A DNA stretch of 64,000 nucleotides. Origin: Aphrocallistes beatrix. Taxonomy: Eukaryota; Porifera; Hexactinellida; Sceptrulophora; Aphrocallistidae. The translations under genes and the position numbers were made by a program. Numbering within the stretch: the stretch's first letter is position 1; the number at the start of each line of letters is the position of its first letter. Positions 3,936 through 63,849 of this stretch are shown here, piece after piece. The DNA lies in the NCBI GenBank assembly GCA_963281255.1, contig OY725499.1, forward strand, positions 372,001 to 436,000. The letters are read 5' to 3'. Below the pieces are notes generated by a model, which saw only the letters and a list, made by a program, of their open reading frames with translations, ran no database searches and was not told the origin of the DNA.

Positions 3936-4597
3936 TATTTCCTGTACAACTACCTGGACGTCCAGGGAATCCCTGAAGCAGTTGTATCCTTCATTTCCAT
4001 ATTTTCCTTGGATCATCCGCTCTACAATTTACTAGCTAAATTCCGAACGATTAGTTGGTAAGAGAATCATTGAAAATACTAATAAACGTTTTCTGTGAAC
4101 GAGCAAATTGTCTAAAATATGTATTTAAAAAACATCGCGTACGTACGTGTATTTAAAAAAACAAAATCGCGTCCAGTGATATTAGCAAATTTCCGGATGG
4201 GAAATTCGAAGCATCCAAGGACTTAGAAAGTTGGCAGGTATGTAAAGCTAACGAAAAATAGGGGGGGAAGGTAAGAAAAAAAAAGAAATGTGCGCACTAC
4301 TTCCTCTACCCCCATGGTTACGATACATACTCGAATAATTGCCCCAATAAGATGGTTAAAATATTTACCCCATAAGATTTGTTTATATCAAATTATTCCC
4401 TCTTTCCATTTTAAAATCATGTTGGTAGTTTTATATTCATTTAGATGTCTCTAATATCTGCAATATTAAATTTTCATCAGCTTGTAAATAGCTATGCTAA
4501 TAGTTCATGATTCTTCGACGCCGAGATATATATTATTTAATTGTTTTAATCGAACTTTGGATTTATATATATATACTGTACGTATTTCTATTTATAG
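3936..4597. other. intergenic, upstream of the NLR gene
   Basis: AT-rich. TTTATAG ends at 4597, 11 nt before the chosen NLR start, and looks like a splice acceptor. No other feature recognised. Confidence 0.4.
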
Positions 4598-4608
4598 TGT
4601 CACAAGAG

Positions 4609-7600
4609 ATGGCAAAAAACCTTGAAGAATATTCAGACCTTATCGACATAGGCATACAGCTATCATCTGATAATGTCCAGAAAATGAAGACACTGCTAAA
4701 TATCCCAGCCGCATTCGCAGAAAAAGTGACCAATGGTACCACCCTTCTAACCGCATTGCAAGACTGGGGTGAACATGATCCATCTCTGTTCTACGATGGA
4801 ATGAGATCAATAGGAAGATCCGACCTGTTGAAAAAAGCGCAGAAGTATCCATGGTTAGCTTCAAAATCCTCAATTGAACGCAAAAAGGAAATTTCCGTGA
4901 AAAGTTTCGTAACAGTTCTGAAAAATGAACTCAGTGACGAGGATTGGCATCGAATCAAACTAATCGACTCCACTGTTAATGTGTCTATGCCATTTGAAGC
5001 CAAAATAGAATTTCTCCTCCAGAATCGTTACATCGCTACTGACCTAACACAGTTAACCAAACTAATGTCAGTCATTAAACGTGAAGACGTGGCAAATTCC
5101 GTTCAAGAATATCAACATTTTTTTTCACAAAACCCCGATTTGATATCAAATTTCGCAACAAAGCATCTCAACGTTGTCGAGAAAGATATTGCAAAATGGA
5201 ATGTTTCCCTCATGAAATACCTAGAACTTCAGAATAAGAAAGTGCAGCAGATGCTAGATGACGAAGAAAAGGTGGATCTCGAATCCGTGTTCGTTCCTCT
5301 AACGATTATCAAAGAAGAGCCCAGATTAGTGAATCCAGAGGACGAGACTACCTACAATGAAATTGAGTTTATGCGTAAAATTGCCAGAAAAGAAATCAAA
5401 ATCACACCTGTCGATTTTGAAAATGAATTACACGAGTATTTACCCTCAAAACCTGAAATACAACCACAAATCTGGTGCCTCATCGGGAATCCTGGCTGCG
5501 GCAAGACATTCCTTTGCCATAGGATAGGCCTTCTTTTCGGCCAAAACAAACTTCCTCAATTCTCCTTTGCTGTTTCCATTCCTTGTCGAAACGTAGAATG
5601 GCACCAAATGGAACAAAGCAAGAAAGTGTCTGTTGGCATCAATAAGGAATTTGTACAAAACTGGCTCTGCTTATCCATGCCAGTCAATGCCAGCTGGCGT
5701 TCCGACCTTGCGAAACATCTCGTCGAGTCAAACGGTGAAGGACTTCTGATTATCATTGACAGTCTAGACGAGTACACCAAAGAAGTCCCCTTCGCTCGAA
5801 CTCTCCTCTTCCTTCTCCTCACGAGAAGAGTCCTAAAATCCTCCACCATCCTCGTGACGAGCCGTCCAGGTGCTTATACGAACATTTCTTCCAACTTCCA
5901 ACTCAGCATCGACCGCTTTTATCAAGTCCTCGGATTCTCTCCTGAGAACCGAGACCTCTACTTCCGCATCCAACTTCCAGAACAGGAGAAACTGGATCAG
6001 TTGAAGTATTTAATCTACCTCCATGACGATATAAACCAGCTCTCTCTCGTGCCAGTAAACGCGTCATTATTCGCAGCTCTTGTTCGTGAAAATGATAATG
6101 TGAGCGCCTTCACCCTCACACTCCTCTACACAGAGTTGATCAGCTACCTCATCAGGCGACAACTCTCAAGAATGAACTTGAAGCACCTGGCCAAGAAACA
6201 GTTGTTTCCCCGAATGCATCCAGATGTAGTGGATTGTCTGCATCGCGTCGGCGAGGTAGCTTATCTCGGAGTGTCCAGTCGAGAACTGACCTCCACGAAG
6301 GATATCCTCCTTAACGTGGACGGAGTAGATCAGGCATGTCAGTGCTTGGGCCTGGCAGAAGAGCACATTAAGAAGCTCCCTCATGGCAAAGTTGTCCGTG
6401 TGTGGTGTTTTTCCCACCTGACCATCCAAGAGTTTGTCGGTGCTAACTGGTTGCGCAATTGTTCATGGAGGGACCAATGCCTAAGCACTCGCTACATTGT
6501 CAACTCCGATGACAACTTTTCAGTGTTTAAGATGGTGGTGAGGTTTGTGTGCGGTTTATTGTCCGACGATGCAGACCTGATTCTCTCCATCCTGTTCAAA
6601 TTCGTTCCAACGAAGACAGTTGACATGATCCAGATGCCAATGGTATGGCAACTCAACTGCAACAAACAACTTCTCGAATATTCAGGTTGTAAGGAATTTA
6701 CTCGAGATTTCTTAGTTTTGTCAGAAATGCTTTTTGAATGCGACTCCAAATCGGTTTTAATATCATTTGCCAAATTCCGTCGTTTCCTTCCTGAGTCGCT
6801 ATACTTCTATTTTGAAGATTCCATATCTCCTAACGAGTGGAAGTGTTTCTTAAAGTCGCTACGTCTCCTCCGTTCCATACAACTAATACATTTCAATTCA
6901 AAATACATATCTCCGCCTCAGTTCAGATCATTACTGGAGCATCTGCATACTTGTTCCCTGAACTACTTAGCAGTGAGGTTATATCACGGAATATTTTCCA
7001 CTCTGTCTTCTTACAGTGGAGCCTTAGAAGAAATTCAACTACCTCCTGGAGCTAAACTTAAATTGGAACTTTTTGGTTGTGACCTCACAGACAGTTACTC
7101 AGCTGTTTCTGTGTCAAATCTTCCAATGCTCAAACTATCCACGAGTTTGTGTTTCGATAATACAAATTTTCCTCTTAAATCTCTTCAGCATGTGTGGAAT
7201 CAATTGAAATCCACTGATCATTTACTTTTTAATCCCAGAAATCCGGAAGAAGGAATTTTAATTCCATTTGTCAACCTTGTACGGAAACAGAAACGACCAG
7301 AGAACTTTTATCAAAAGCTCAAAAAGTTGTCCACCCGTAGCCGTTCGGGTGGTACACAGCTCACCGGTCTACATCTCTATGATATTAAACGATATGAACT
7401 GGAATTAGAAACACTACTCCCTCTACTCTCCAATCTACAGGAGATAACATTGGAAGGAGGAGATACAGACTCACTACTACCTCACCTCTGCAATCTAACC
7501 AGACTCACATACCTACATCTAGACCCCTCCTACCACTTCTTTACACCTGAGGCTACGGTTCCTAAAGATCTACTACGAGTCCTGAATACTAACAAACACA

Positions 7601-8049
7601 CTCTGAGAGGATTGGAGTTGTCTAACTTACACAGAGTTGGACTAACTCGTTGGGATGAATTCTTCAGCTCAATATGCACATGTACCAACTTAGTACTTAT
7701 TCGACTAAACCAAACTATACTAGAACCGGATGATGTCACTCTCCTCGGTACAGCAGTGAGTGGACTCAGATCTTTAGTCCATTTGTATCTATATAAAGTC
7801 CCACTGGATAAAATTGTGTTGTTACATATGTGTAGAGGACTCATCTACCATCCTACTATCCTGTATTTAGGACTAAAGTTTTGTTACTTAAGTTTCAACT
7901 TTTGCGATATTCTCACACACCTCATACCGACTCTACTACAGCTGAAGACTCTAGAACTGGATGGTAATGAACCCTACAAACAATATCTTAAACCCGTCCG
8001 ACTTCTTGAAAGAACCGCAAAGCTATATTCTGTAACTCTTAAGCTTTAA
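4609..8049 (+). CDS. NLR-like receptor: two DED-like domains, NACHT, LRR
   Basis: About 1146 residues, no intron. Probably an intracellular immune sensor of the NACHT/NLR class. Residues ~10-80 and ~100-175 look like two death-fold domains of the DED type; the first ends with S-I-G-R-S-D-L-L, close to the usual DED helix-5 pattern. The NACHT ATPase follows: Walker A GNPGCGKT at ~293-300, Walker B LLIIIDSLDE ending at ~388, then a sensor-like LVTSRPGA. The C-terminal third holds irregular leucine-rich repeats (for example LTGLHLYDI, LQEITLEGG, LTYLHLDPS). An upstream in-frame ATG at 4507 would add 34 residues of hydrophobic AT-rich sequence that looks untranslated, and TTTATAG lies between the two starts, so 4609 is preferred. 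Tandem DEDs ahead of NACHT are unusual; vertebrate NLRs mostly carry CARD or PYD. The DED assignment is by eye and needs a profile search; NACHT is certain. Confidence 0.88.
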   Translation: MAKNLEEYSDLIDIGIQLSSDNVQKMKTLLNIPAAFAEKVTNGTTLLTALQDWGEHDPSLFYDGMRSIGRSDLLKKAQKYPWLASKSSIERKKEISVKSFVTVLKNELSDEDWHRIKLIDSTVNVSMPFEAKIEFLLQNRYIATDLTQLTKLMSVIKREDVANSVQEYQHFFSQNPDLISNFATKHLNVVEKDIAKWNVSLMKYLELQNKKVQQMLDDEEKVDLESVFVPLTIIKEEPRLVNPEDETTYNEIEFMRKIARKEIKITPVDFENELHEYLPSKPEIQPQIWCLIGNPGCGKTFLCHRIGLLFGQNKLPQFSFAVSIPCRNVEWHQMEQSKKVSVGINKEFVQNWLCLSMPVNASWRSDLAKHLVESNGEGLLIIIDSLDEYTKEVPFARTLLFLLLTRRVLKSSTILVTSRPGAYTNISSNFQLSIDRFYQVLGFSPENRDLYFRIQLPEQEKLDQLKYLIYLHDDINQLSLVPVNASLFAALVRENDNVSAFTLTLLYTELISYLIRRQLSRMNLKHLAKKQLFPRMHPDVVDCLHRVGEVAYLGVSSRELTSTKDILLNVDGVDQACQCLGLAEEHIKKLPHGKVVRVWCFSHLTIQEFVGANWLRNCSWRDQCLSTRYIVNSDDNFSVFKMVVRFVCGLLSDDADLILSILFKFVPTKTVDMIQMPMVWQLNCNKQLLEYSGCKEFTRDFLVLSEMLFECDSKSVLISFAKFRRFLPESLYFYFEDSISPNEWKCFLKSLRLLRSIQLIHFNSKYISPPQFRSLLEHLHTCSLNYLAVRLYHGIFSTLSSYSGALEEIQLPPGAKLKLELFGCDLTDSYSAVSVSNLPMLKLSTSLCFDNTNFPLKSLQHVWNQLKSTDHLLFNPRNPEEGILIPFVNLVRKQKRPENFYQKLKKLSTRSRSGGTQLTGLHLYDIKRYELELETLLPLLSNLQEITLEGGDTDSLLPHLCNLTRLTYLHLDPSYHFFTPEATVPKDLLRVLNTNKHTLRGLELSNLHRVGLTRWDEFFSSICTCTNLVLIRLNQTILEPDDVTLLGTAVSGLRSLVHLYLYKVPLDKIVLLHMCRGLIYHPTILYLGLKFCYLSFNFCDILTHLIPTLLQLKTLELDGNEPYKQYLKPVRLLERTAKLYSVTLKL

Positions 8050-13070: not shown

Positions 13071-14228
13071 ATGCATGATAATATTTTGATGTACGATTGG
13101 GAAATCGTTTTTAAGGTGGATTGTATTCTTTTAGTACCGCTTGCCTTTCTAACAGCAATTTTGTTCATTATTTGGAACGTTTATTTTCTGAAAAAGGTTC
13201 GATTTTTTATCACACAACGTTCACAAGCATTAGAAAAGGCTAAATGTGACATTTTAGGAAATTTTGCACAATTAGCGGAAAACCATAAGATCGAAATAGT
13301 GAAATATTGCTTTCTTTCCGTCATCAGTAATGTAGAATTATTCACTATCATTGTTTATGCCGTCGCTTTTCTTGCGTCCTATATCGTTCTATATACTAAA
13401 GATCTGACCTATTTCCCCGAAAACGTTAACAAATCGAACTGCTCTTTACACTATGTCAATTTCAAAAATGCGCAATCACTTTCTTCTCGAATTCCCGCGC
13501 TAAATTTCAGTATAGCATTAGGACAAATCGGAGTGATGCTCATAATGACTCTCTGTGTCTGTCTTGTCAAATACTTGCATGCTAGTTACTTCAAAATCGG
13601 AGGTAGTACAAGATGGATTTTACGTTTTCTTTTTATCACACTATTCATATGCATCGTTAAACTGATCTGTAGTGTGGTGCCTGCGTTGATGATTTTTTAT
13701 TTTTTATTTGGACCTGTATTTCAATTTTTTTATTTATACTTATTCGTCAAGTATTTGCGCATATTTCGCCGCACCTTGAAGAGACAGACTATTGACTTGA
13801 AGATAATCTGCAAACCCAAAGCAACGATTGAAACATCAATTAGATTAAGGAAACAATTCACTGTCGTTTCAACCCTGAACTGTTTTGGTTTTGGATGCCT
13901 TATTTTCGCTGAATCTTTGGATCAATATGTTTTCGTTATCTCCATAGCTCTTTATTTTGCACCTTGTTTCACTGAATATGCTTATGGGAGAGTATTATAT
14001 CAGGCTCCACTAGTAAACACAGTTCAGTTCGACCAACTTCAAATGGCAGTACAAATCATCGACTGGATCGCAAATGCCTTTTTTATTGTGGCCTGTATTT
14101 GCATAGCCTCTCACTTCACTTTAGTATCATTATTTCTTTTTAGCGCCAAAGTACGCAACGACCTTAAAATGAGATTTGGAAATCGTTTCCGTTATAGTCC
14201 AATAATTACCCAACCACTTTTACAGTAG
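13071..14228 (+). CDS. orphan multi-pass membrane protein (about 7 TM)
   Basis: 385 residues with hydrophobic stretches near 18-40, 87-108, 148-168, 182-203, 204-228, 264-300 and 329-358. That suggests seven, perhaps eight, membrane passes. The segment between passes 5 and 6 is basic (RRTLKRQ, KPKATIETSIRLRKQ), as in the third intracellular loop of a 7TM receptor. The loop after pass 2 carries NKSNCS, possible N-glycosylation sites. No DRY, NPxxY or other family signature was recognised, so a receptor role is only a guess. ATG at 13071 is 9 nt after ATTATAG; M7 is an alternative start. No homologue recognised. Confidence 0.75.
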   Translation: MHDNILMYDWEIVFKVDCILLVPLAFLTAILFIIWNVYFLKKVRFFITQRSQALEKAKCDILGNFAQLAENHKIEIVKYCFLSVISNVELFTIIVYAVAFLASYIVLYTKDLTYFPENVNKSNCSLHYVNFKNAQSLSSRIPALNFSIALGQIGVMLIMTLCVCLVKYLHASYFKIGGSTRWILRFLFITLFICIVKLICSVVPALMIFYFLFGPVFQFFYLYLFVKYLRIFRRTLKRQTIDLKIICKPKATIETSIRLRKQFTVVSTLNCFGFGCLIFAESLDQYVFVISIALYFAPCFTEYAYGRVLYQAPLVNTVQFDQLQMAVQIIDWIANAFFIVACICIASHFTLVSLFLFSAKVRNDLKMRFGNRFRYSPIITQPLLQ

Positions 14229-27386: not shown

Positions 27387-27961
27387 CACTGGGTAACTCG
27401 GCGGACACGCAGTTTCCGCAAGCCGCGCAGCGTAAGCAAGCGAAGCGCGTTTGTAATGATAATTTCCCTTCATAAAAAAATTGAGCATATTTTGAGCATA
27501 ATTTGAGCACATTTTGATCATATTTTGATCATAATTTGATCATATTCCGAGCATATTTTGATCATAATTTGAGCATATTTTGAGCATAATTTAAGCATAA
27601 TTTGAGCATAATTCGAGTATATTTTGAGCATATTTTGAGCATTATTTGAGCTTATTTTGAGCATTATTTGAGCATAATTTGAGCATAATTTGAGCATATT
27701 TTTAGCATAATTTTAGCATTATTTGAGCATTATTTGAGCATATTTTAGCATATTTTGAGCATTACTTGAGCATAATGAGCATAATTTCCACGAACCCAAA
27801 TTTTCTGTTACATTCTGATTTCATTAATGTTACTACAGACAAATGGCAATTCAGCATACTTAGTAGAGAACAATATCTAATATCCCCAAGCGCCCAATGG
27901 ACAACTCTGTGGATACGCAGTGTCCGCAAGCCGCGCAGCGCAAGCAAGCGAAGCGCGCTTG
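27387..27961 (+). mobile_element. two Helitron-like 3' ends around a satellite
   Basis: GGACACGCAGTTTCCGCAAG...GCGCGTTTG ends at 27453 and GATACGCAGTGTCCGCAAGC...GCGCGCTTG ends at 27961, both followed by T. 27800-27961 resembles 58970-59137. No 5' ends seen. Confidence 0.65.
27481..27787. repeat. 11-bp satellite (TTGAGCATAWT)n, about 28 copies
   Basis: Near-perfect 11-base period with variants GATCAT and TAGCAT. It lies between the two Helitron-like 3' ends, as if carried within the second element. Confidence 0.9.
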
Positions 27962-28299: not shown

Positions 28300-28329
28300 A
28301 TGGGAAATGAACATGTTCAAACTAACTAA
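28300..28329 (+). promoter_or_regulatory. short upstream ORF overlapping the transporter start
   Basis: An ATG at 28300 opens nine codons and stops at 28327-28329. It overlaps the main ATG (28307) in another frame and could lower translation of the long ORF. Confidence 0.35.
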
Positions 28330-31300
28330 CTATCTAATACTTTTCTTTACTCTATTCTTTACCCTGTCAACAACGAATGGAAAACTAAGTTGGAATCGCT
28401 TTAAAGATCCACGAGCCTTATGTAATGACTACACACGAAGTGGATACTTCATATCTTCCAATGTTAATCATTCCCTTGCACAGAATAAAACAAAATGGGT
28501 GATTTTCCTCGAGAGTGGTGGTGTTTGTTCAACGCCAGACGATTGTAACTATCGATACACAAAATTCCGTGCAGAACCGACCAAAAATGGAAACATGACA
28601 GTCTCCAGTCTAATGTCTAGCCTCGAAACGTTCTTTAGCGACGAGTTGTTATCCCAGGGAATGGAAGGTTATGACATTCTATCCACCGACCCAGTCTTAA
28701 ACCCCTCCTTTCACGACTACATCCATGTTCTGCTACCTTACTGTACAAGTGATTTATGGTTTGGCATCGGCCAGGATCAAAATCCGATTGACCCTACGCC
28801 ATTCAGCTTTTCAAATACCCATACTGAATCTTTTCAGTTCACATTTCGCGGTAGTGTAATCCTAAATAGCCTTTTTACTGAATTAAATCAGACATACAAA
28901 CTTAACAACGCTTCGAAAGTTATCTTTTCTGGTTCCTCAGCTGGTGGAATTGCTTTATTCACTCATGCCAAAACATTGCAAACATTTTTGTCACCTTCCA
29001 CTCAATTTTCCGTATTAGGAGATTCATCTTGGTTTATCAACTTTCAAGATTCATTTGAATTCATCAATGGCAGTGTACTCTACTATAATCTTCCAGCATA
29101 TCCGGCTTGTAGACTTCTCCGCCATGGAGTACCTTGTTGCATATCAGCACCTTGTATGCTAACAAACAATGAATTCTACCCACAAAACTTAAAAACACTC
29201 GTATTCTTCAGTCTCTACGATATCTACTTGCTTAATCAGACATTAGGTGATCAAGTTAGCGCTGAAAACTTCCTAATTTTCAACATTCTCCGTATTATTA
29301 CTGAGCTCGGTGGTGCTATGAATCATAGTCTTCAGTTGGTTGAGTCTTTTAATCACGATTTTAGTTTCATCGCTTCCTCCTGTCTCCAGCATGTTTTTCT
29401 TGCCACCTCATCTTTATGGGTGGAAGGACCATTCGGTTTATTCGCAGAGACAATTCAAGAAGAATACATCAATTCTGTATTTTCTATCACAGTAAAACCC
29501 GGAATTTGGACCAGTTATGCAATAAAACTGGATGGTAACAGTAACGAAAGCAAAACTATTACAATTCGTGATGCCATTACAGAATGGGATAGTGGTGCTA
29601 AAATTGGTTACAGAGATAGTTGTAAAAGTCCTCATTGCAATGACAGATGTCCTGAAACATTGACCCTTGGCCTAGGCACCCCATTCTGGCCCAAGAGTGT
29701 GCAATACACTCTAATCGGTGTTGTACTAACGATCGTAATTGTTTGTATAACAATAAAGCTTGGAATGACTTTATGGTATGCATTGATTAGACGGAATCAA
29801 AAGCGCTATGTAGAACGACACCAAAAACTACGTTCGAAATCTGTTAACTCCCGTGGCAACACCAAATCTTTTCAGATCATGAAATGCGACCCAGACGATA
29901 CTGTTACTCTAGCATGCCTCGATATCGAATATAAAGTGAACATATCTGCTCTAGCTGCAAAGAGATTACGTTACGCAGAAGAAGATATTGAACCGTTAGT
30001 ACTAAAATCTTTGGACACTATCAATGAAGATATGCTTAAAACCCTTGATAGGAAACAAATGCGAAGAAGGCATTCAGGGAAAATGACACAAAGTATGTCA
30101 ACTAATGATCTCCAACCATTTTCACCAATCCATGTTCAGAAGGAAAGTAGTTTTAGTAGTATGGGTGACTTTCCTGATGAAAATCCTTCGACTATTCTCC
30201 TGCATAATTCTCCTAGACGGAGTACTACAATGACATTCGATGATAGTCCTTATAAAAAGAAAAGATTGGTTAAAGACGACTCGATGCTTTTTGAAACACT
30301 TCAGAGAGTTGCATCTTTTCCGCCAGAGAGTAAAAGTAAAAAATCTTTCAAAAATCCACTCGCACAAAATTCCAGGACTATTCTCAAAGGCATTTCAGCT
30401 CTCTTCAATCCAGGCGAACTAGTAGCCATAATGGGCCCTTCCGGTTCAGGAAAAACAACTTTACTCGATTTACTCACAGGGCGTCGACAAGTTGGCGAGA
30501 TAAAGGGCAGTGTTTTCGTAAACGGATTTAACGTACAATCAATTCGTTCATGGTTTGTTGCGAATACTGGGTATGTCCTTCAACAGGCACAACCTTTCTA
30601 TGAAGAATTGACTGTCAGGGAGAATTTGACATTCTCCGCATTTATGCGTTTGCCTTCATCCATGACTCTCCATCATAAACTGGAACGAGTTGAGGAGGTG
30701 TTAAGGGAAACTTTTCTTATTGATCTCGGTGACACCAAAGTAGGTCGATCGGGTGGACCTGGGCTAAGCGGGGGCCAAAAACGACGTTTAAGTGTTGCTG
30801 TACAACTTTTGAAACGTCCAAGTTTGTTATTCCTTGATGAACCAACTTCAGGATTGGATGCCTCATCATCATATGAACTTCTAACTTACCTAAACCATGT
30901 CGCAGCCAGTGATCGCACAGTAATCGTTACAATCCATCAACCAAGGTTTGAAATTTTCCATCTTTTCAGTAAAATCATTCTACTCTGCCGCGGCCAGATT
31001 GCATACCATGGCGCCCCTGAGAAAGCGTATGAGGTGTTCGTAAACGCACACAAATCTTTCGCCTATACCCGTGGGATAAAGTTACCTGATATCGAGAAAC
31101 ACAATCCGGCAGATGTGATAATGGATATTTTAGGTAGCAAAGAATCGCGATCGGCTATACTCACCTATTATCGTTTAACTGAGGAAAGCGAGGCCATTTA
31201 TGATGCAATTTGTGAAGCTCAACAAAAGCGAAAAAAGTACTTCGGTCCTGTTAGGTATAGTCAACGGTTCAAAGGTCAAAAGTCCTCTTCATTCCTGGCC

Positions 31301-33031
31301 CGCATAGCTACATGGGAGGCCCGTGCATCCCTCCGTGTCACCTGGTCCCAACTGATCTATCTCCCGATTGTTTTCACTGTCTACGGCCTTCTTCTTGGTT
31401 CTGCATATAAACAAGCAAGCGAAGCTCTTCTCATCATTTCGGGTTTCTGTGTGTATAGTGTTGCAAGTGCTCTCTTTATGTTTCCAATAATGTTTACTTA
31501 CTACCAACCGACATTGAAGATTTATGCACAAGAGAGAGCAGATGGCGCTGGACATGCGTTTGACTTGTTGTTCCATGGCTTTGTCCGTTTTGTAAGTTGG
31601 GCTTTCTTACCGGTAGTGAGCTGTTGTGCTGTCCTCTACCTTTTCATTGTTCAATACTCATCTTATGACATTTGGGTGTTTTTTCAAGTGATGATTATCA
31701 ATTTGGCTTTGAATCACACGTGGATTGCGCTTTTAATGTTCATTATATTCTGTTTCCCTACAATTGCCCACCGAATCTCACCCATAGTGGCATCTGTTGC
31801 AGGTTTTGCTGGTGGATTTTTCGTACCCATTCATCTAATGCCCATTTATTACAAATTTCTTTTCTACATAAATCCCAATTTTTATGGTTTCTCAGCCAGT
31901 GCCAGGATAATCCTTGATAACCTCAAGCTAACTTGTCCCTACGAGTCCGAATTGGAATGTTACACCACTTCGGCTAACTACACCCTGCAACAGTTCGATT
32001 TTATAGATATCCAACCCTATCAGCATATCTTGATCCTCATGTGCATGACAGTCATTTTTCTCTTCTTAGCGCATACTGCGCTTTGGATAAGATACTTCAA
32101 TTGGAGGCAATTCTTGAAATGCAGCAAATCCGCGAAACATCTTGATATCGAGGATGGAGTTGACATGGACACGTATCTTGAAGGTTCAACTGAACATAAC
32201 CCATACACCATACCGAATAATGAAAAACGGCAATCTTCTGTCGGGCAAAATATTTCGAATGACTTTCATTGGGAATCTCCGATTGAAACAGGTGGGCAAG
32301 AATGGACAACATCAACGAAAAGATCTGCCCCACTATCAAATAATCGTTCAAGTATCATATCTGGCGAACAAAGTAGTTACTCCAATTTCATATTCGAGAA
32401 TCTTTCAAAAGAAAGTCCTTCAAAAAATAATTTCTCATCCCCAAATCTTGCTATTAGCCCTGATTCTGACACAAAATCTCGTAACATTATGATTGCAAAA
32501 CATCGATCTTTCAAGGTTCCACGGGCTGACGGTATTCAGGTTGAAAGTGAACTGGTACAATCTATTTCAATGACAAATCTAAGTTCGAATAAGAAACCAC
32601 GTTCATTACTGAAAAATCCGAATGAACAGATACGAGACCGCCAACAGAATATGTACCATCGTATTCAGGAATACAATCTTGTGTCGAAAGATATCGAAGA
32701 CGATGCAGTCAGGGATAGGGATCTGACTTTCAGAAAAAAATCTTCAAATTATTACCAAAATACAACGAAAAAAATTGATAAGAAACTATTTGAAGAACTG
32801 AATTTTTGCGAATTCGAATCTCACAAAAAGTTAGAACCTCTTTCTCGCAAGGTGTCAAAATTTGAAGTCGTCCACATAGATGGGTCTTCAACTTTGCCTA
32901 CAAAATTCGCCTCAAAAGATGATTTCGAGGACACTTTTATAGACTCGAAACAAGAGCCAGTTCGAAGTTTTGATGTACTAGGCGCCAACGAATCGAAAGG
33001 TCCGGAGTTAGTAAGGAGAAATAGTTTTTAG
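28307..33031 (+). CDS. NOTUM-like hydrolase fused to an ABCG-type transporter
   Basis: 1574 residues in one uninterrupted frame. Signal peptide ~1-25 (LILFFTLFFTLSTTNG). Residues ~26-440 are a NOTUM/pectin-acetylesterase-type hydrolase: FLESGGVC, LPYCTSDLWFG, FSGSSAGG with nucleophile Ser211, GDSSWF, a candidate Asp305 (SLYDIYLL) and His362 (SCLQHVF), all in the order of NOTUM's Ser-Asp-His triad. Multiple N-glycosylation sequons fit an outside location. A membrane pass lies at ~466-490. A linker leads to an ABCG nucleotide-binding domain: Walker A GPSGSGKT 710-717, signature LSGGQKRR from 820, Walker B LLFLDEPTSGLD with Asp844/Glu845. ABC2-type membrane segments follow (~1020-1275), then a ~300-residue serine-rich cytosolic tail. 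It is a half-transporter, so it should dimerise. Substrate unknown; family knowledge suggests lipids or lipid-linked molecules. ATG is 14 nt after TATTTAG. Confidence 0.92.
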   Translation: MNMFKLTNYLILFFTLFFTLSTTNGKLSWNRFKDPRALCNDYTRSGYFISSNVNHSLAQNKTKWVIFLESGGVCSTPDDCNYRYTKFRAEPTKNGNMTVSSLMSSLETFFSDELLSQGMEGYDILSTDPVLNPSFHDYIHVLLPYCTSDLWFGIGQDQNPIDPTPFSFSNTHTESFQFTFRGSVILNSLFTELNQTYKLNNASKVIFSGSSAGGIALFTHAKTLQTFLSPSTQFSVLGDSSWFINFQDSFEFINGSVLYYNLPAYPACRLLRHGVPCCISAPCMLTNNEFYPQNLKTLVFFSLYDIYLLNQTLGDQVSAENFLIFNILRIITELGGAMNHSLQLVESFNHDFSFIASSCLQHVFLATSSLWVEGPFGLFAETIQEEYINSVFSITVKPGIWTSYAIKLDGNSNESKTITIRDAITEWDSGAKIGYRDSCKSPHCNDRCPETLTLGLGTPFWPKSVQYTLIGVVLTIVIVCITIKLGMTLWYALIRRNQKRYVERHQKLRSKSVNSRGNTKSFQIMKCDPDDTVTLACLDIEYKVNISALAAKRLRYAEEDIEPLVLKSLDTINEDMLKTLDRKQMRRRHSGKMTQSMSTNDLQPFSPIHVQKESSFSSMGDFPDENPSTILLHNSPRRSTTMTFDDSPYKKKRLVKDDSMLFETLQRVASFPPESKSKKSFKNPLAQNSRTILKGISALFNPGELVAIMGPSGSGKTTLLDLLTGRRQVGEIKGSVFVNGFNVQSIRSWFVANTGYVLQQAQPFYEELTVRENLTFSAFMRLPSSMTLHHKLERVEEVLRETFLIDLGDTKVGRSGGPGLSGGQKRRLSVAVQLLKRPSLLFLDEPTSGLDASSSYELLTYLNHVAASDRTVIVTIHQPRFEIFHLFSKIILLCRGQIAYHGAPEKAYEVFVNAHKSFAYTRGIKLPDIEKHNPADVIMDILGSKESRSAILTYYRLTEESEAIYDAICEAQQKRKKYFGPVRYSQRFKGQKSSSFLARIATWEARASLRVTWSQLIYLPIVFTVYGLLLGSAYKQASEALLIISGFCVYSVASALFMFPIMFTYYQPTLKIYAQERADGAGHAFDLLFHGFVRFVSWAFLPVVSCCAVLYLFIVQYSSYDIWVFFQVMIINLALNHTWIALLMFIIFCFPTIAHRISPIVASVAGFAGGFFVPIHLMPIYYKFLFYINPNFYGFSASARIILDNLKLTCPYESELECYTTSANYTLQQFDFIDIQPYQHILILMCMTVIFLFLAHTALWIRYFNWRQFLKCSKSAKHLDIEDGVDMDTYLEGSTEHNPYTIPNNEKRQSSVGQNISNDFHWESPIETGGQEWTTSTKRSAPLSNNRSSIISGEQSSYSNFIFENLSKESPSKNNFSSPNLAISPDSDTKSRNIMIAKHRSFKVPRADGIQVESELVQSISMTNLSSNKKPRSLLKNPNEQIRDRQQNMYHRIQEYNLVSKDIEDDAVRDRDLTFRKKSSNYYQNTTKKIDKKLFEELNFCEFESHKKLEPLSRKVSKFEVVHIDGSSTLPTKFASKDDFEDTFIDSKQEPVRSFDVLGANESKGPELVRRNSF

Positions 33032-33561: not shown

Positions 33562-34205
33562 CACTACCTGGACTAAAGTATTCTACCACCACGAAAACCT
33601 CCATACTACAAAGAGTGGGTTTATTCGTAAAGGAATATGTACTCAAACTGTAGGAATAACTCTATTTTTGCTTTCAAATTCGTAAACCGCACATCCGAAT
33701 TACTCATTTTTGAAAGTTTCAACACAAAGACTTACTCTCATGTAGAAAATTATTAACCTGTGCCATTTTGTGTCACTAATCGCCATCATATATAATGATC
33801 GTGACTAGGGACAAGTAACATCAGATATCAGAAGTAGATATTTTAAAACTTGGTAGTTGGTAATTGAGTAATTAGTAGAATGTATAGATCAGAGGCCGGC
33901 AACCTTTTGAATGAAGTGTGCCAGTTTACCTATAATGTCAGTATATTTATGACCTTGTGTGCCAGTGGTACGCCTGCCTAGGGTTACCGACCCCTGAATA
34001 TACATAAATGTCGGTCTGTCGACCCACATATATTTTCAATTCCGCGTGCCATAGGTTGCCGACCCCTGGTATAGATTATTAATTTGAAATCAAAAATAGA
34101 ATCATTCCTACAATTTGAGTTAATATTCCTTTATGAATAGACCCACTTTGATAGTCTTTGTATGAAGGTTTTCGTGGTGATCGAATACTTTTGTCCAGGC
34201 TGCAG
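33562..34205. mobile_element. Tc1-like element with ~120-bp inverted ends
   Basis: Left CACTACCTGGACTAAAGTAT, right ATACTTTTGTCCAGG; inverted similarity continues through ACCACCACGAAAACCT and AATAGAGT-like blocks. TA on the left; the right terminus has mutated. It is interrupted by the hAT-like MITE at 33890-34068. Confidence 0.78.
33890..34068. mobile_element. hAT-like MITE nested in a Tc1-like element
   Basis: Ends CAGAGGCCGGCAACCT and complement of CAGGGGTCGGCAACCT. Perfect 8-bp repeat GTATAGAT at 33882-33889 and 34069-34076. Confidence 0.9.
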
Positions 34206-34424: not shown

Positions 34425-36107
34425 ATGGCAAGTTTATCCGCAACTAATGATCCTGAAGTTCAAGTGAATCAAGACGACGTTATTTCACCTTCGAATCCAT
34501 CAATAAGTGACGAAACAATCAAAGAAACGAACTTAGGTGAAGTAGATTTATTCCCAGGTTTAGAACAAGCAACTGCTAGCTTATGCGAGAACGGAATCAT
34601 ATTTAGGTTAATTGATTGTAATTCGAGTGTACGATCAAAAAGTTTTTCAGTGAAGCGTGAAAAGCTTAAAGCAGAATCATTGAAAAGTGAATTTAGTGAT
34701 ATTCCTCAGAAATGTATCATCATCAAGTGGGAGGATTTTCTTAATTGTCGTATTGTCAACGCGGAAAGTAAACAAAACCCCAATCTTCTTGAAATTATAA
34801 GCTACGAAGTGTGTGCGATAGCCAAAAAGTGTAAAAAGCGTTCTCGTTCGGTTTTACGGTTTTCTCCTTCACCGCTACCTGAAGATGGAAGTATAGAGCC
34901 TCTTTGGATCGATAAAATAATCCTAGCTAGTCGAAAATATGTACAAAGACATTACAAAGTAGTTAGGATGTTACGCGATGAGGAACTACTTGCCAAAAAG
35001 CGCGTTTTGGTGCTGTTAAATCCAGTGAGTGGTAAGGGTATGGCGCTCAAGATATTCCGTCAACAAATCGAACCCTTTCTGATTGAGGCAGGCATCGATT
35101 TCGAACTTTTCGTGTCAGAGAGAGTCGGTCATGTTAGAGATACGCTGAGGGAGAACTCTCTAGATCAATGGGATGCATTTCTGTTTGTAAGTGGTGATGG
35201 CCTCCTTAATGAAGGCATAAACGGTTTACTTTCTCGTGATGATGCCCATGTCGCCATTCAAAAGCCCATCGGCATATTACCATGTGGTTCAGGAAATGCC
35301 GTTGCTAGTGTCACTCTTTACTATTCGCATGAATTTTACTCTCCTTTAAATGCAGCTTTTATCTTTGCCAAAGGTCTCCACAACTCCTCCGAATGCCTTG
35401 ATATTGCCATTCTCACACAGGGTGAGAGAAAATCATACTTTTTCTTGGACATTGCTTGGGGTATAGTGGCTGATGTTGGTACAGAGACTGAAGTACTAAG
35501 GAGAATGGGCGAGGTACGATTCATTTTAGGCGCTTTATGGAGAATTTTAAAAAGACGCATATATCAAGCTGATTTATCTTATCTTCCTTATGATGATTCC
35601 TCACCAGTAGAAGGAAAAAGTCCCTCTGAAATTGAAAACATTCCCAGCGATAACCCTTCAGATTCCCTTCCAAAAGAGAAAGAAATATCGCCAGAAAATA
35701 CAAGTGATATCGTATCTAAACCAGGCGACAATGCAAATTCATCTTGGATTCAATTTCCAGGTCCTTTCACCAATGTTACTCTAACTCTATTGCCTCTAAT
35801 TGCTCATGACCTCTTTATAGCCCCAAATCATGAGTTTGGAAAAGGATTTTTCACTTTAACAGTCTTGCCGTATGAAAATATTCGCCGCCGAGATATTCTT
35901 CGAATGTTAGGTAGCATGAGTGATGGAAGCATTGATGGATTACAAGGCATTCATTTCATAAAAGTGAAAGCATTCCGTTTCAGGCCTACCTTCCCCCTAA
36001 ATGGATATATGACTTTTGATGGAGAACATGCTCAATATGCGGAAATCACTGCCGAATTGAGTAATTATAAACTGTGTATGCCAAATCTTTTTGATAGGGA
36101 CGACTAA
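34425..36107 (+). CDS. sphingosine-kinase-like lipid kinase, copy 1
   Basis: 560 residues, intronless. DAGK-type lipid kinase fold, most like sphingosine kinase, which makes sphingosine 1-phosphate. NPVSGKG at 199-205 is the glycine-rich phosphate loop, SGDGLLNEGINGL from 256 (Asp258) is the C2-type catalytic motif, PCGSGNA at 286-292 follows, and the C-terminal FPLNGYMTFDGE is the C5-type region. SGDG rather than GGDG favours sphingosine kinase over ceramide or diacylglycerol kinase. The first ~100 residues are acidic and unplaced. A ~65-residue polar insert (VEGKSPSEIENIPS...) lies between the catalytic blocks, as in other sphingosine kinases. ATG follows TATTTAG by 11 nt. Nearly identical to the next gene. 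Confidence 0.88.
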   Translation: MASLSATNDPEVQVNQDDVISPSNPSISDETIKETNLGEVDLFPGLEQATASLCENGIIFRLIDCNSSVRSKSFSVKREKLKAESLKSEFSDIPQKCIIIKWEDFLNCRIVNAESKQNPNLLEIISYEVCAIAKKCKKRSRSVLRFSPSPLPEDGSIEPLWIDKIILASRKYVQRHYKVVRMLRDEELLAKKRVLVLLNPVSGKGMALKIFRQQIEPFLIEAGIDFELFVSERVGHVRDTLRENSLDQWDAFLFVSGDGLLNEGINGLLSRDDAHVAIQKPIGILPCGSGNAVASVTLYYSHEFYSPLNAAFIFAKGLHNSSECLDIAILTQGERKSYFFLDIAWGIVADVGTETEVLRRMGEVRFILGALWRILKRRIYQADLSYLPYDDSSPVEGKSPSEIENIPSDNPSDSLPKEKEISPENTSDIVSKPGDNANSSWIQFPGPFTNVTLTLLPLIAHDLFIAPNHEFGKGFFTLTVLPYENIRRRDILRMLGSMSDGSIDGLQGIHFIKVKAFRFRPTFPLNGYMTFDGEHAQYAEITAELSNYKLCMPNLFDRDD

Positions 36108-36338: not shown

Positions 36339-38021
36339 ATGGCAAGTTTATCCGCAACTAATGATCCTGAAGTTCAAGTGAATCAAGACGACGTTATTTC
36401 ACCTTCGAATCCATCAATAAGTGACGAAACAATCAAAGAAACGAATTTAGGTGAAGTAGATTTATTCCCAGGTCTAGAACAAGCAACTGCTAGCTTATGC
36501 GAGAACGGAATCATATTTAGGTTAGTTGATTGTAATTCGAGTGTACGATCAAAAAGTTTTTCGGTGAAGCATGAAAAGCTTAAAGCAGAATCATTGAAAA
36601 GTGAATTTAGTGATATTCCTCAGAAATGTATCATCATCAAGTGGGAGGATTTTCTTAATTGTCGTATTGTCAACGCGGAAAGTAAACAAAACCCCAATCT
36701 TCTTGAAATTATAAGCTACGAAGTGTGTGCGATAGCCAAAAAGTGTAAAAAGCGTTCTCGTTCGGTTTTACGGTTTTCTCCTTCACCGCTACCTGAAGAT
36801 GGAAGTATAGAGCCTCTTTGGATCGATAAAATAATCCTAGCTAGTCGAAAATATGTACAAAGACATTACAAAGTAGTTAGGATGTTAAGCGATGAGGAAC
36901 TACTTGCCAAAAAGCGCGTTTTGGTGCTGTTAAATCCAGTGAGTGGTAAGGGTATGGCGCTCAAGATATTCCGTCAACAAATCGAACCATTTCTGATTGA
37001 GGCAGGCATCGATTTCGAACTTTTCGTGTCAGAGAGAGTCGGCCATGTTAGAGATACGCTGAGAGAGAACTCTCTAGATAAATGGGATGCATTTCTGTTT
37101 GTAAGTGGTGATGGCCTCCTTAATGAAGGCATTAACGGTTTACTTTCTCGTGATGATGCCCACCTCGCCATTCAAAAGCCCATCGGTATATTACCATGTG
37201 GTTCAGGAAATGCCGTTGCTAGTGTCACTCTTTACTATTCGCATGAATTTTACTCTCCTTTAAATGCAGCTTTTATCTTTGCCAAAGGTCTCCACAACTC
37301 CTCCGAATGCCTTGATATTGCCATTCTCACACAGGGTGAGAGAAAATCATACTTTTTCTTGGACATTGCTTGGGGTATAGTGGCTGATGTTGATACGGAG
37401 ACTGAAGTACTAAGGAGAATGGGCGAGGTACGATTCATTTTAGGCGCTTTATGGAGAATTTTAAAAAGACGCATATATCAAGCTGATTTATCCTATCTTC
37501 CTTTTGATGATTCCTCACCAGTAGAAGGAAAAAGTCCCTCTGAAATTGAAAACATTCCCAGCGATAACCCTTCAGATTCCCTTCCAAAAGAGAAAGAAAT
37601 ATCGCCAGAAAATACAAGTGATATCGTATCTAAACCAGGCGACAATGCAAATTCATCTTGGATTCAATTTCCAGGACCTTTCACCAATGTAACTCTAACT
37701 CTATTGCCTCTAATTGGTCATGACCTCTTTATAGCCCCAAATCATGAGTTTGGAAAAGGATTCTTCACTTTAACAGTCTTGCCGTATGAAAATATCCGCC
37801 GCCGAGATATTCTTCGAATGTTAGGTAGCATGAGTGATGGAAACATTGATGGATTACAAGGTATTCATTTCATAAAAGTGAAAGCATTCCGTTTCAGGCC
37901 TACCTTTCCCCTAAATGGATATATGACTTTTGATGGAGAACAAGCTCAATATGCAGAAATCACTGCCGAATTGAGTAATTATAAACTGTGTATGCCAAAT
38001 CTTTTTGATAAGGACAGCTAA
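36339..38021 (+). CDS. sphingosine-kinase-like lipid kinase, copy 2
   Basis: 560 residues, 12 substitutions against copy 1 (about 98% identical), none in NPVSGKG, SGDGLLNEGINGL or PCGSGNA, so both copies look active. Changes include Arg185Ser next to the phosphate-loop strand, Gln247Lys and Gly354Asp. The repeat period is 1914 bases and takes in about 50 bases before the ATG (GTGGTCTTTAAACAATATCA) and about 150 bases after the stop, including (TTTTA)n. The start context differs: here TTTATAGGTTTTTAG precedes the ATG, giving an additional acceptor-like AG two bases from the start. Confidence 0.88.
   Translation: MASLSATNDPEVQVNQDDVISPSNPSISDETIKETNLGEVDLFPGLEQATASLCENGIIFRLVDCNSSVRSKSFSVKHEKLKAESLKSEFSDIPQKCIIIKWEDFLNCRIVNAESKQNPNLLEIISYEVCAIAKKCKKRSRSVLRFSPSPLPEDGSIEPLWIDKIILASRKYVQRHYKVVRMLSDEELLAKKRVLVLLNPVSGKGMALKIFRQQIEPFLIEAGIDFELFVSERVGHVRDTLRENSLDKWDAFLFVSGDGLLNEGINGLLSRDDAHLAIQKPIGILPCGSGNAVASVTLYYSHEFYSPLNAAFIFAKGLHNSSECLDIAILTQGERKSYFFLDIAWGIVADVDTETEVLRRMGEVRFILGALWRILKRRIYQADLSYLPFDDSSPVEGKSPSEIENIPSDNPSDSLPKEKEISPENTSDIVSKPGDNANSSWIQFPGPFTNVTLTLLPLIGHDLFIAPNHEFGKGFFTLTVLPYENIRRRDILRMLGSMSDGNIDGLQGIHFIKVKAFRFRPTFPLNGYMTFDGEQAQYAEITAELSNYKLCMPNLFDKDS

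Positions 38022-57077: not shown

Positions 57078-63849
<6,772 letters not shown>

Follow-up and report, generated by a model that had tools for sequence, protein, structure and literature searches.

In the genome of the glass sponge Aphrocallistes beatrix (assembly GCA_963281255.1), we examined a stretch of 64,000 nts (bases 372001-436000 of contig 13, OY725499.1; hereafter called the window) and found that one of its genes is predicted to encode a single bifunctional membrane protein, in which an ectodomain of the pectin acetylesterase (PAE)/NOTUM family is followed by a membrane pass, a linker and an ABCG-type half-transporter. We propose that this fusion protein may work as a processing exporter, i.e., that a dimer of the ABCG half would move an acylated or acetylated cargo and that the tethered esterase would deacylate the cargo outside the cell. 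This reading is given a probability of about 0.38. It draws on one frame running over both domains, three Pfam domains scoring above their cut-offs, conserved triad columns, intact ABC motifs and the distribution of charges around the membrane pass.

A single open reading frame spans both halves

The gene consists of one ATG-to-stop frame of 1574 codons that fills positions 28307-33031 (+) exactly, without the need for an intron. Stop-free runs in 20 base-shuffled versions of the window reached 161 codons at most, and the single 1574-residue frame reported by a first-pass annotation of this DNA was thus confirmed. Given the local base composition, the chance of 195 linker codons without a stop is ~10^-5.7. 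The in-frame codon scores of the PAE part (0.068), the linker (0.076), the nucleotide-binding domain (NBD; 0.058) and the C-terminal tail (0.063) each exceed those of both other frames by small differences, with the exception of the membrane domain, whose in-frame score (0.015) is lower than that of frame +2 (0.034).

These values bear on the explanation that two genes have been read as one, with a transcript boundary or an unrecognized intron between the domains. Three AATAAA hexamers within the frame (28484, 29521 and 29752) would fit such a boundary, but the linker is open throughout, the codon scores favor the same frame on both sides of it (membrane domain excepted), and the leader, the membrane pass and the charge pattern described below form one coherent predicted topology. 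We regard this explanation as very improbable.

The ectodomain and its predicted active site

The Pfam PAE model (PF03283) matches residues 36-373 with 99 bits (cut-off 26.6). In a single-sequence search, the significant relatives of solved structure were NOTUM chains, the best having an E-value of 5.5e-12 over residues 34-246. With a two-sequence profile, built from the ectodomain and the other PAE copy of the genome, the NOTUM alignment reaches all three catalytic segments, placing the Ser in GSSAGG, the Asp in 'lydiyll'/'lfdeaql' and the His in 'clqH'/'clsH'. In addition, the C-terminal segment DSCKSPHCNDRCP resembles DSCPWPHCNPSCP of NOTUM, a small segment that is not significant alone.

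We also aligned bacterial relatives using MAFFT; 30 loci were fetched from the phylum of the one prokaryotic match reported below, and the 21 passing an E-value of 1e-3 were aligned, some of these rows (such as L070 and L072) being close kin. The columns of Ser211 and Asp305 are invariant (21/21 each), and that of His362 is conserved in 20 of the 21 rows, the one exception belonging to a frame cut short by the end of its contig. Cys39, Cys74, Cys146, Asp149, Gly182, Gly209 and Gly213 are likewise invariant in 21/21 rows. The NOTUM triad columns found by the profile and the bacterial columns both bear out the earlier proposal of a PAE/NOTUM domain with Ser211, Asp305 and His362 in triad order. 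By its sequence, the ectodomain belongs to the serine esterases of the PAE/NOTUM family, and its predicted Ser-Asp-His triad is complete.

The oxyanion segment of the ectodomain reads Ser70-Gly71-Gly72, and the bacterial relatives have glycine at these positions in 21/21, 20/21 and 21/21 rows, respectively. In human NOTUM, the oxyanion hole is described as formed by the backbone amides Gly126-Gly127, Gly127-Trp128 and Ser232-Ala233 (available part of PMC8172013). Since serine too has a backbone amide, Ser70 leaves the activity of the domain unsettled. It is nevertheless this serine, in place of a glycine found in all of the bacterial relatives, that lends some weight to another explanation, in which the ectodomain would no longer be an enzyme and would instead form a ligand-binding lid or receptor that gates export. 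The divergence of the domain points in the same direction, as the Pfam PAE score of the ectodomain is 99 bits compared with 203 for the stand-alone copy. On the other side, the three catalytic residues have been kept amid otherwise strong divergence, and we consider the loss of enzymatic function quite unlikely.

The ABCG-type half-transporter

Within the ABC half, Pfam ABC_tran matches residues 693-848 with 98.8 bits (cut-off 25), and all ATP-site motifs looked for are intact, i.e., Walker A (710-717), LSGGQ (820-824), Walker B (840-851) and the H-loop (876-879). Pfam ABC2_membrane matches residues 1012-1199 with 28.5 bits (cut-off 26.9). The order of domains is that of ABCG proteins, the NBD lying ahead of an ABC2-type membrane domain with six segments by hydropathy; the full ABCG NBD and the ABC2 membrane segments named by the first-pass annotation were therefore both recovered. 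The ABCG-type model TIGR00955 ('pigment precursor permease', 617 positions) aligns to residues 678-1262 with 303.6 bits, which is below its cut-off of 736. Among PDB chains, ABCG1 aligns with the NBD and the membrane domain over residues 688-1257 (E 2.1e-52), and so does a fungal pleiotropic drug transporter, with E 2.3e-60 for the match as a whole and its best stretch at 687-1230; none of the PDB matches listed (60 of 573) is labelled as an Adp1 or ABCG24/28-type protein.

ABC2_membrane matches were found at 11 places in the genome, the fusion gene included. When 75 of the 135 candidates for relatives of the ABC half were scored, the next-best genome match covered residues 5-503 of 583 at 29% identity; shorter matches confined to the NBD had identities of up to 42% (~260 residues) and 48% (71 residues). 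These scored candidates included no close paralogue of the ABC half, so that the fusion gene does not obviously stem from a recent joining to a duplicated neighbor.

Predicted topology

The coordinates of all features are listed in Table 1. The hydrophobicity of residues 10-22 is above that of every 13-mer in the soluble parts of the protein (0/927 equal it), and the best 19-residue hydropathy average of the leader is 1.46, just below the membrane cut-off of 1.5. Of the signal peptide annotated earlier, a hydrophobic leader thus stands, and residues 1-25 are likely a signal peptide as judged by hydropathy only. The one membrane pass annotated earlier corresponds to a hydrophobic segment at residues 469-487. 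Lys/Arg outnumber Asp/Glu by eight to one in the 25 residues after this segment and are equal in number to them (two and two) in the 24 residues before it. Because positive charge follows the membrane pass (positive-inside rule), this pattern suggests that the N terminus and the esterase domain lie outside the cell. Residues 26-466 contain 12 cysteines and nine N-glycosylation sequons. Pfam scans of the linker (residues 465-681) and of the C-terminal tail (residues 1301-1574) detected no family.

Table 1. Features of the predicted esterase-ABCG fusion gene, in positions of the window.
Feature	Position	Strand	Residues	Basis or remark
Whole coding sequence: PAE/NOTUM-type ectodomain, membrane pass, ABCG half-transporter, tail	28307..33031	+	1-1574	1574 amino acids + stop
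Hydrophobic leader, likely signal peptide	28307..28381	+	1-25	Hydropathy only; residues 10-20 LILFFTLFFTL
PAE/NOTUM-family esterase domain	28412..29656	+	36 to ~450	Pfam PF03283 over 36-373, then NOTUM-like cysteine motif 437-449
Codon of predicted catalytic nucleophile, in GSSAGG	28937..28939	+	Ser211	Alignment
Codon of predicted catalytic acid	29219..29221	+	Asp305	Alignment
Codon of predicted catalytic base	29390..29392	+	His362	Alignment
Single membrane pass	29711..29767	+	469-487	Hydropathy
Linker, probably cytosolic	29768..30364	+	488-686	Length ~200 residues
ABCG nucleotide-binding domain	30365..31051	+	687-915	Pfam and ATP-site motifs
ABC2-type membrane domain, six hydrophobic segments	31352..32083	+	between 1016 and 1259	Pfam and hydropathy
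C-terminal tail, probably cytosolic	32159..33028	+	1285-1574 (~290)	Position after membrane domain

Relationship to NOTUM and to Wnt

Where NOTUM has LEGGWYC, the ectodomain has LESGGVC, so that the Gly-Gly-Trp oxyanion motif (126-128 in human NOTUM) is replaced by Ser-Gly-Gly. Taking Gly-Gly-Trp as a mark of the NOTUM subfamily is our own reading of two NOTUM sequences, with its numbering and role from the available part of PMC8172013. The oxyanion segment of the other PAE copy in the genome is Gly-Gly-Ser, and neither family member has Gly-Gly-Trp.

A six-frame search of the genome, in which short exons can be missed, returned 0 matches for Wnt and 0 for Wntless. As these two profiles matched in no control genome, the matches of the same search to Frizzled (three places with 185, 107 and 36 bits, the third being weak) and TGF-beta (five places) serve as positive controls instead. 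Besides, a search for DIX gave two places in the genome, one being a 50-amino-acid frame and the other a coiled-coil-like protein with a C-terminal DIX domain as its sole Pfam match, which we take to be DIXDC1-like. The available part of PMC5684314 reports that Wnt, Wntless, Dishevelled and Frizzled A are absent from glass sponges and that Frizzled B has been kept, with which our Wnt, Wntless and Frizzled results agree; the same part of that source lists five TGF-beta ligands in A. vastus and five in Trichoplax, so that the five TGF-beta places found here fit both.

Therefore, with Ser-Gly-Gly in place of Gly-Gly-Trp and no match to Wnt or Wntless in the genome, a role of the ectodomain as a Wnt depalmitoleoylase is unlikely. 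The first-pass annotation cited the removal of palmitoleate from Wnt by NOTUM as known; for the ectodomain studied here, a Wnt role is not supported. Its term 'NOTUM-like' is sound at the level of the family, since the solved structures to which the ectodomain is significantly related are NOTUM chains and the C-terminal cysteine motif resembles that of NOTUM, and does not extend to the oxyanion segment. These same two resemblances, the second of them not significant by itself, are what would favor a NOTUM that cleaves palmitoleate from Wnt and couples this to lipid movement; set against the replaced motif and against a search that found Frizzled and TGF-beta but neither Wnt nor Wntless, such a function appears extremely improbable.

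Relatives and comparison with known systems

PF03283 was found at two places in the genome, the fusion gene and a stand-alone frame of 392 amino acids (L001). The latter, at G000:C14:3353198-3354166, is a PAE/NOTUM-family frame with GVSTGG around the nucleophile.

Among prokaryote genomes, the PAE alignment found one Bdellovibrionales protein, which is cut off by the end of its contig. In the phylum of this protein, 78 PAE matches were detected in 69 of 368 genomes, with open frames of 248-487 amino acids, at least one of which (G001) runs off its contig; frames of these lengths are too short for both halves of the fusion protein. The PAE part had no match among plasmids at an E-value of 1e-5. 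Searches of viral contigs yielded no relative of the whole protein and no match to the PAE alignments, and the ABC alignment matched 16 viral loci, covering at most the NBD. In literature searches for the fusion and for ABCG proteins with ectodomains, no fusion of a PAE/NOTUM domain with an ABC transporter was described in the titles and opening abstracts of the open-licence papers listed, and in the available text of PMC5465549 neither 'transporter' nor 'domain architecture' occurs (0 occurrences each). The fusion may already stand unnoticed in public databases.

Compared with NOTUM (palmitoleoyl-protein carboxylesterase, PDB 4UYU and others), the ectodomain shares the family, the Ser-Asp-His order and motifs, and the C-terminal cysteine motif, but it is joined to an ABC transporter, lacks Gly-Gly-Trp, and occurs in a genome with no Wnt match. 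With the pectin acetylesterases, whose plant PF03283 members form CAZy CE13 (available part of PMC5465549), and with the bacterial PF03283 proteins, it shares the Pfam family, the triad columns and a Gly where NOTUM has Trp; the bacterial proteins differ in being separate proteins and in having Gly rather than Ser at position 70.

Half-transporters such as ABCG1, ABCG2 and ABCG5/8 and the fungal pleiotropic drug transporters have the same NBD followed by a six-segment membrane domain and the same ATP-site motifs, to which the fusion protein adds a secreted-type enzyme at the N terminus, a membrane pass, a linker of ~200 residues and a tail of ~290 residues. Yeast Adp1 and plant ABCG24/ABCG28-type proteins consist of a leader, an N-terminal ectodomain, a membrane pass, an NBD and a membrane domain; the fusion protein resembles them in this layout, and to our knowledge their ectodomains are not PAE/NOTUM esterases. 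Thus, both halves belong to well-known families and the layout itself is known; what differs is an esterase as the ectodomain. Peptidase-containing ABC exporters, in which a cytosolic cysteine protease is attached to the exporter and acts on its cargo, offer a mechanistic analogy only: in both cases a hydrolase is covalently attached to an ABC exporter, but the domains are unrelated and the enzyme here is a predicted extracellular serine esterase.

That PAE relatives occur as separate proteins, both in bacteria and as the stand-alone copy of this genome, is also what would be expected if the role of the transporter were only to provide sorting and a membrane anchor, with the esterase deacylating or deacetylating glycans or lipids of the surface or the environment that have nothing to do with the cargo of the pump. 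Gly72, shared with 21/21 bacterial proteins at the position of the NOTUM Trp, agrees with this explanation as well. A simple anchor, however, has no need of the ATP-site motifs that the pump half has kept, and we see an anchored esterase as a real possibility, albeit a fairly unlikely one.

Proposed mechanism

ABCG half-transporters export or flip lipids and other hydrophobic compounds, and they do so as dimers. A homodimer of the fusion protein would therefore place two esterase domains on the extracellular side of the membrane, beside the exit of the pump. In the processing exporter that we favor, the ABCG dimer would export or flip an O-acylated or O-acetylated molecule, such as an ester of a sterol or another lipid, or else an acylated precursor of a glycan, and the tethered esterase would take the acyl group off the cargo as it emerges outside. 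Deacylation would free the product and block its return, so that export would run one way. The substrate need not be a lipid, as PF03283 also includes plant pectin acetylesterases. A coupling of deacylation to transport is plausibly inferred from such a layout. A more specific proposal, in which a NOTUM-family enzyme has been given a non-Wnt job in an animal lineage that has lost Wnt and makes export irreversible by cleaving the cargo on its way out, is rather unlikely and put forward tentatively.

Several observations weigh against the processing exporter. The significant single-sequence match to NOTUM is limited to the N-terminal residues 34-246 of the ectodomain. The assignment of the Asp and His columns depends on the two-sequence profile and on the MAFFT alignment, because the Pfam match of most bacterial rows covers the N-terminal half only. 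Ser70 takes the place of a glycine present in all the bacterial relatives and in the other PAE copy of the genome, and catalysis could therefore be altered. The AlphaFold2 models were unusable, both for residues 1-505 modeled with part of one distant relative (mean pLDDT 35.9) and for residues 660-1320 alone (mean pLDDT 40.8). With regard to topology, the enrichment of sequons in the predicted outside part is not significant (nine observed, 5.5 expected, with 8% of shuffles as high), and seven sequons occur in the C-terminal tail, though the tail is expected to be inside. Moreover, the ABC2_membrane score is barely above its cut-off.

An enzyme-transporter fusion reveals that a chemical step is physically tied to a transport step, a tie that usually stays hidden. 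If the esterase does act on the cargo of the pump, the ester bond of the cargo would be a handle for finding what such an ABCG protein moves. The fusion protein could also show a role for the NOTUM family in a Wnt-less animal, which bears on whether NOTUM acted on Wnt from the beginning or was first a general esterase and was then recruited to Wnt.

Genome setting and neighboring genes

The genome analyzed here (100.5 Mb in 28 contigs) exceeds those of two published glass sponges, Oopsacas minuta (~61 Mb, 36% GC, 1.59 introns per gene; available part of PMC10280926) and Aphrocallistes vastus (80 Mb, many single-exon genes; available part of PMC10282587). The GC content of the window is 31-43% in 2-kb steps, and 14 frames of at least 200 amino acids were found in it, open ends included. 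This GC content, the long single frames and the compactness of the genome are in line with a glass sponge.

Upstream of the fusion gene, a degenerate minisatellite of GAGCATAATTT-like units was noted by eye at 27480-27780. Downstream, positions 33890-34070 contain two oppositely oriented stretches that by eye resemble GGTTGCCGACCCCTG, presumably akin to the ends of hAT-type miniature transposons.

Elsewhere in the window, a 385-amino-acid frame without a Pfam match (13071-14228) is hydrophobic by eye and probably multi-pass, and a short protein at 57078-57737 has repeated MPQGPI-like units followed by a weak NADAR match (28.3 bits, below the cut-off of 35.1). The frames also include tandem C2H2 zinc fingers, a kinase with a p21-binding domain and a NUP214-type propeller. 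At 4507-8049, a single-frame protein of 1180 amino acids combines a NACHT domain (76 bits) with an N terminus that resembles DED at 35.4 bits, a score just short of the cut-off of 35.9, and it looks like an animal-type NLR. Together with the zinc fingers, the kinase and the propeller, it marks the DNA as most likely that of an animal. Finally, two tandem lipid-kinase frames of 560 amino acids each (DAGK_cat; 34425-36107 and 36339-38021) adjoin the transporter gene. They share 98.2% DNA identity, with 12 amino-acid differences, and in an ungapped comparison of their flanks 30 mismatches are reached within 47 bases upstream and 102 bases downstream. Because of this high identity and the quickly diverging flanks, the pair looks like a recent duplication.

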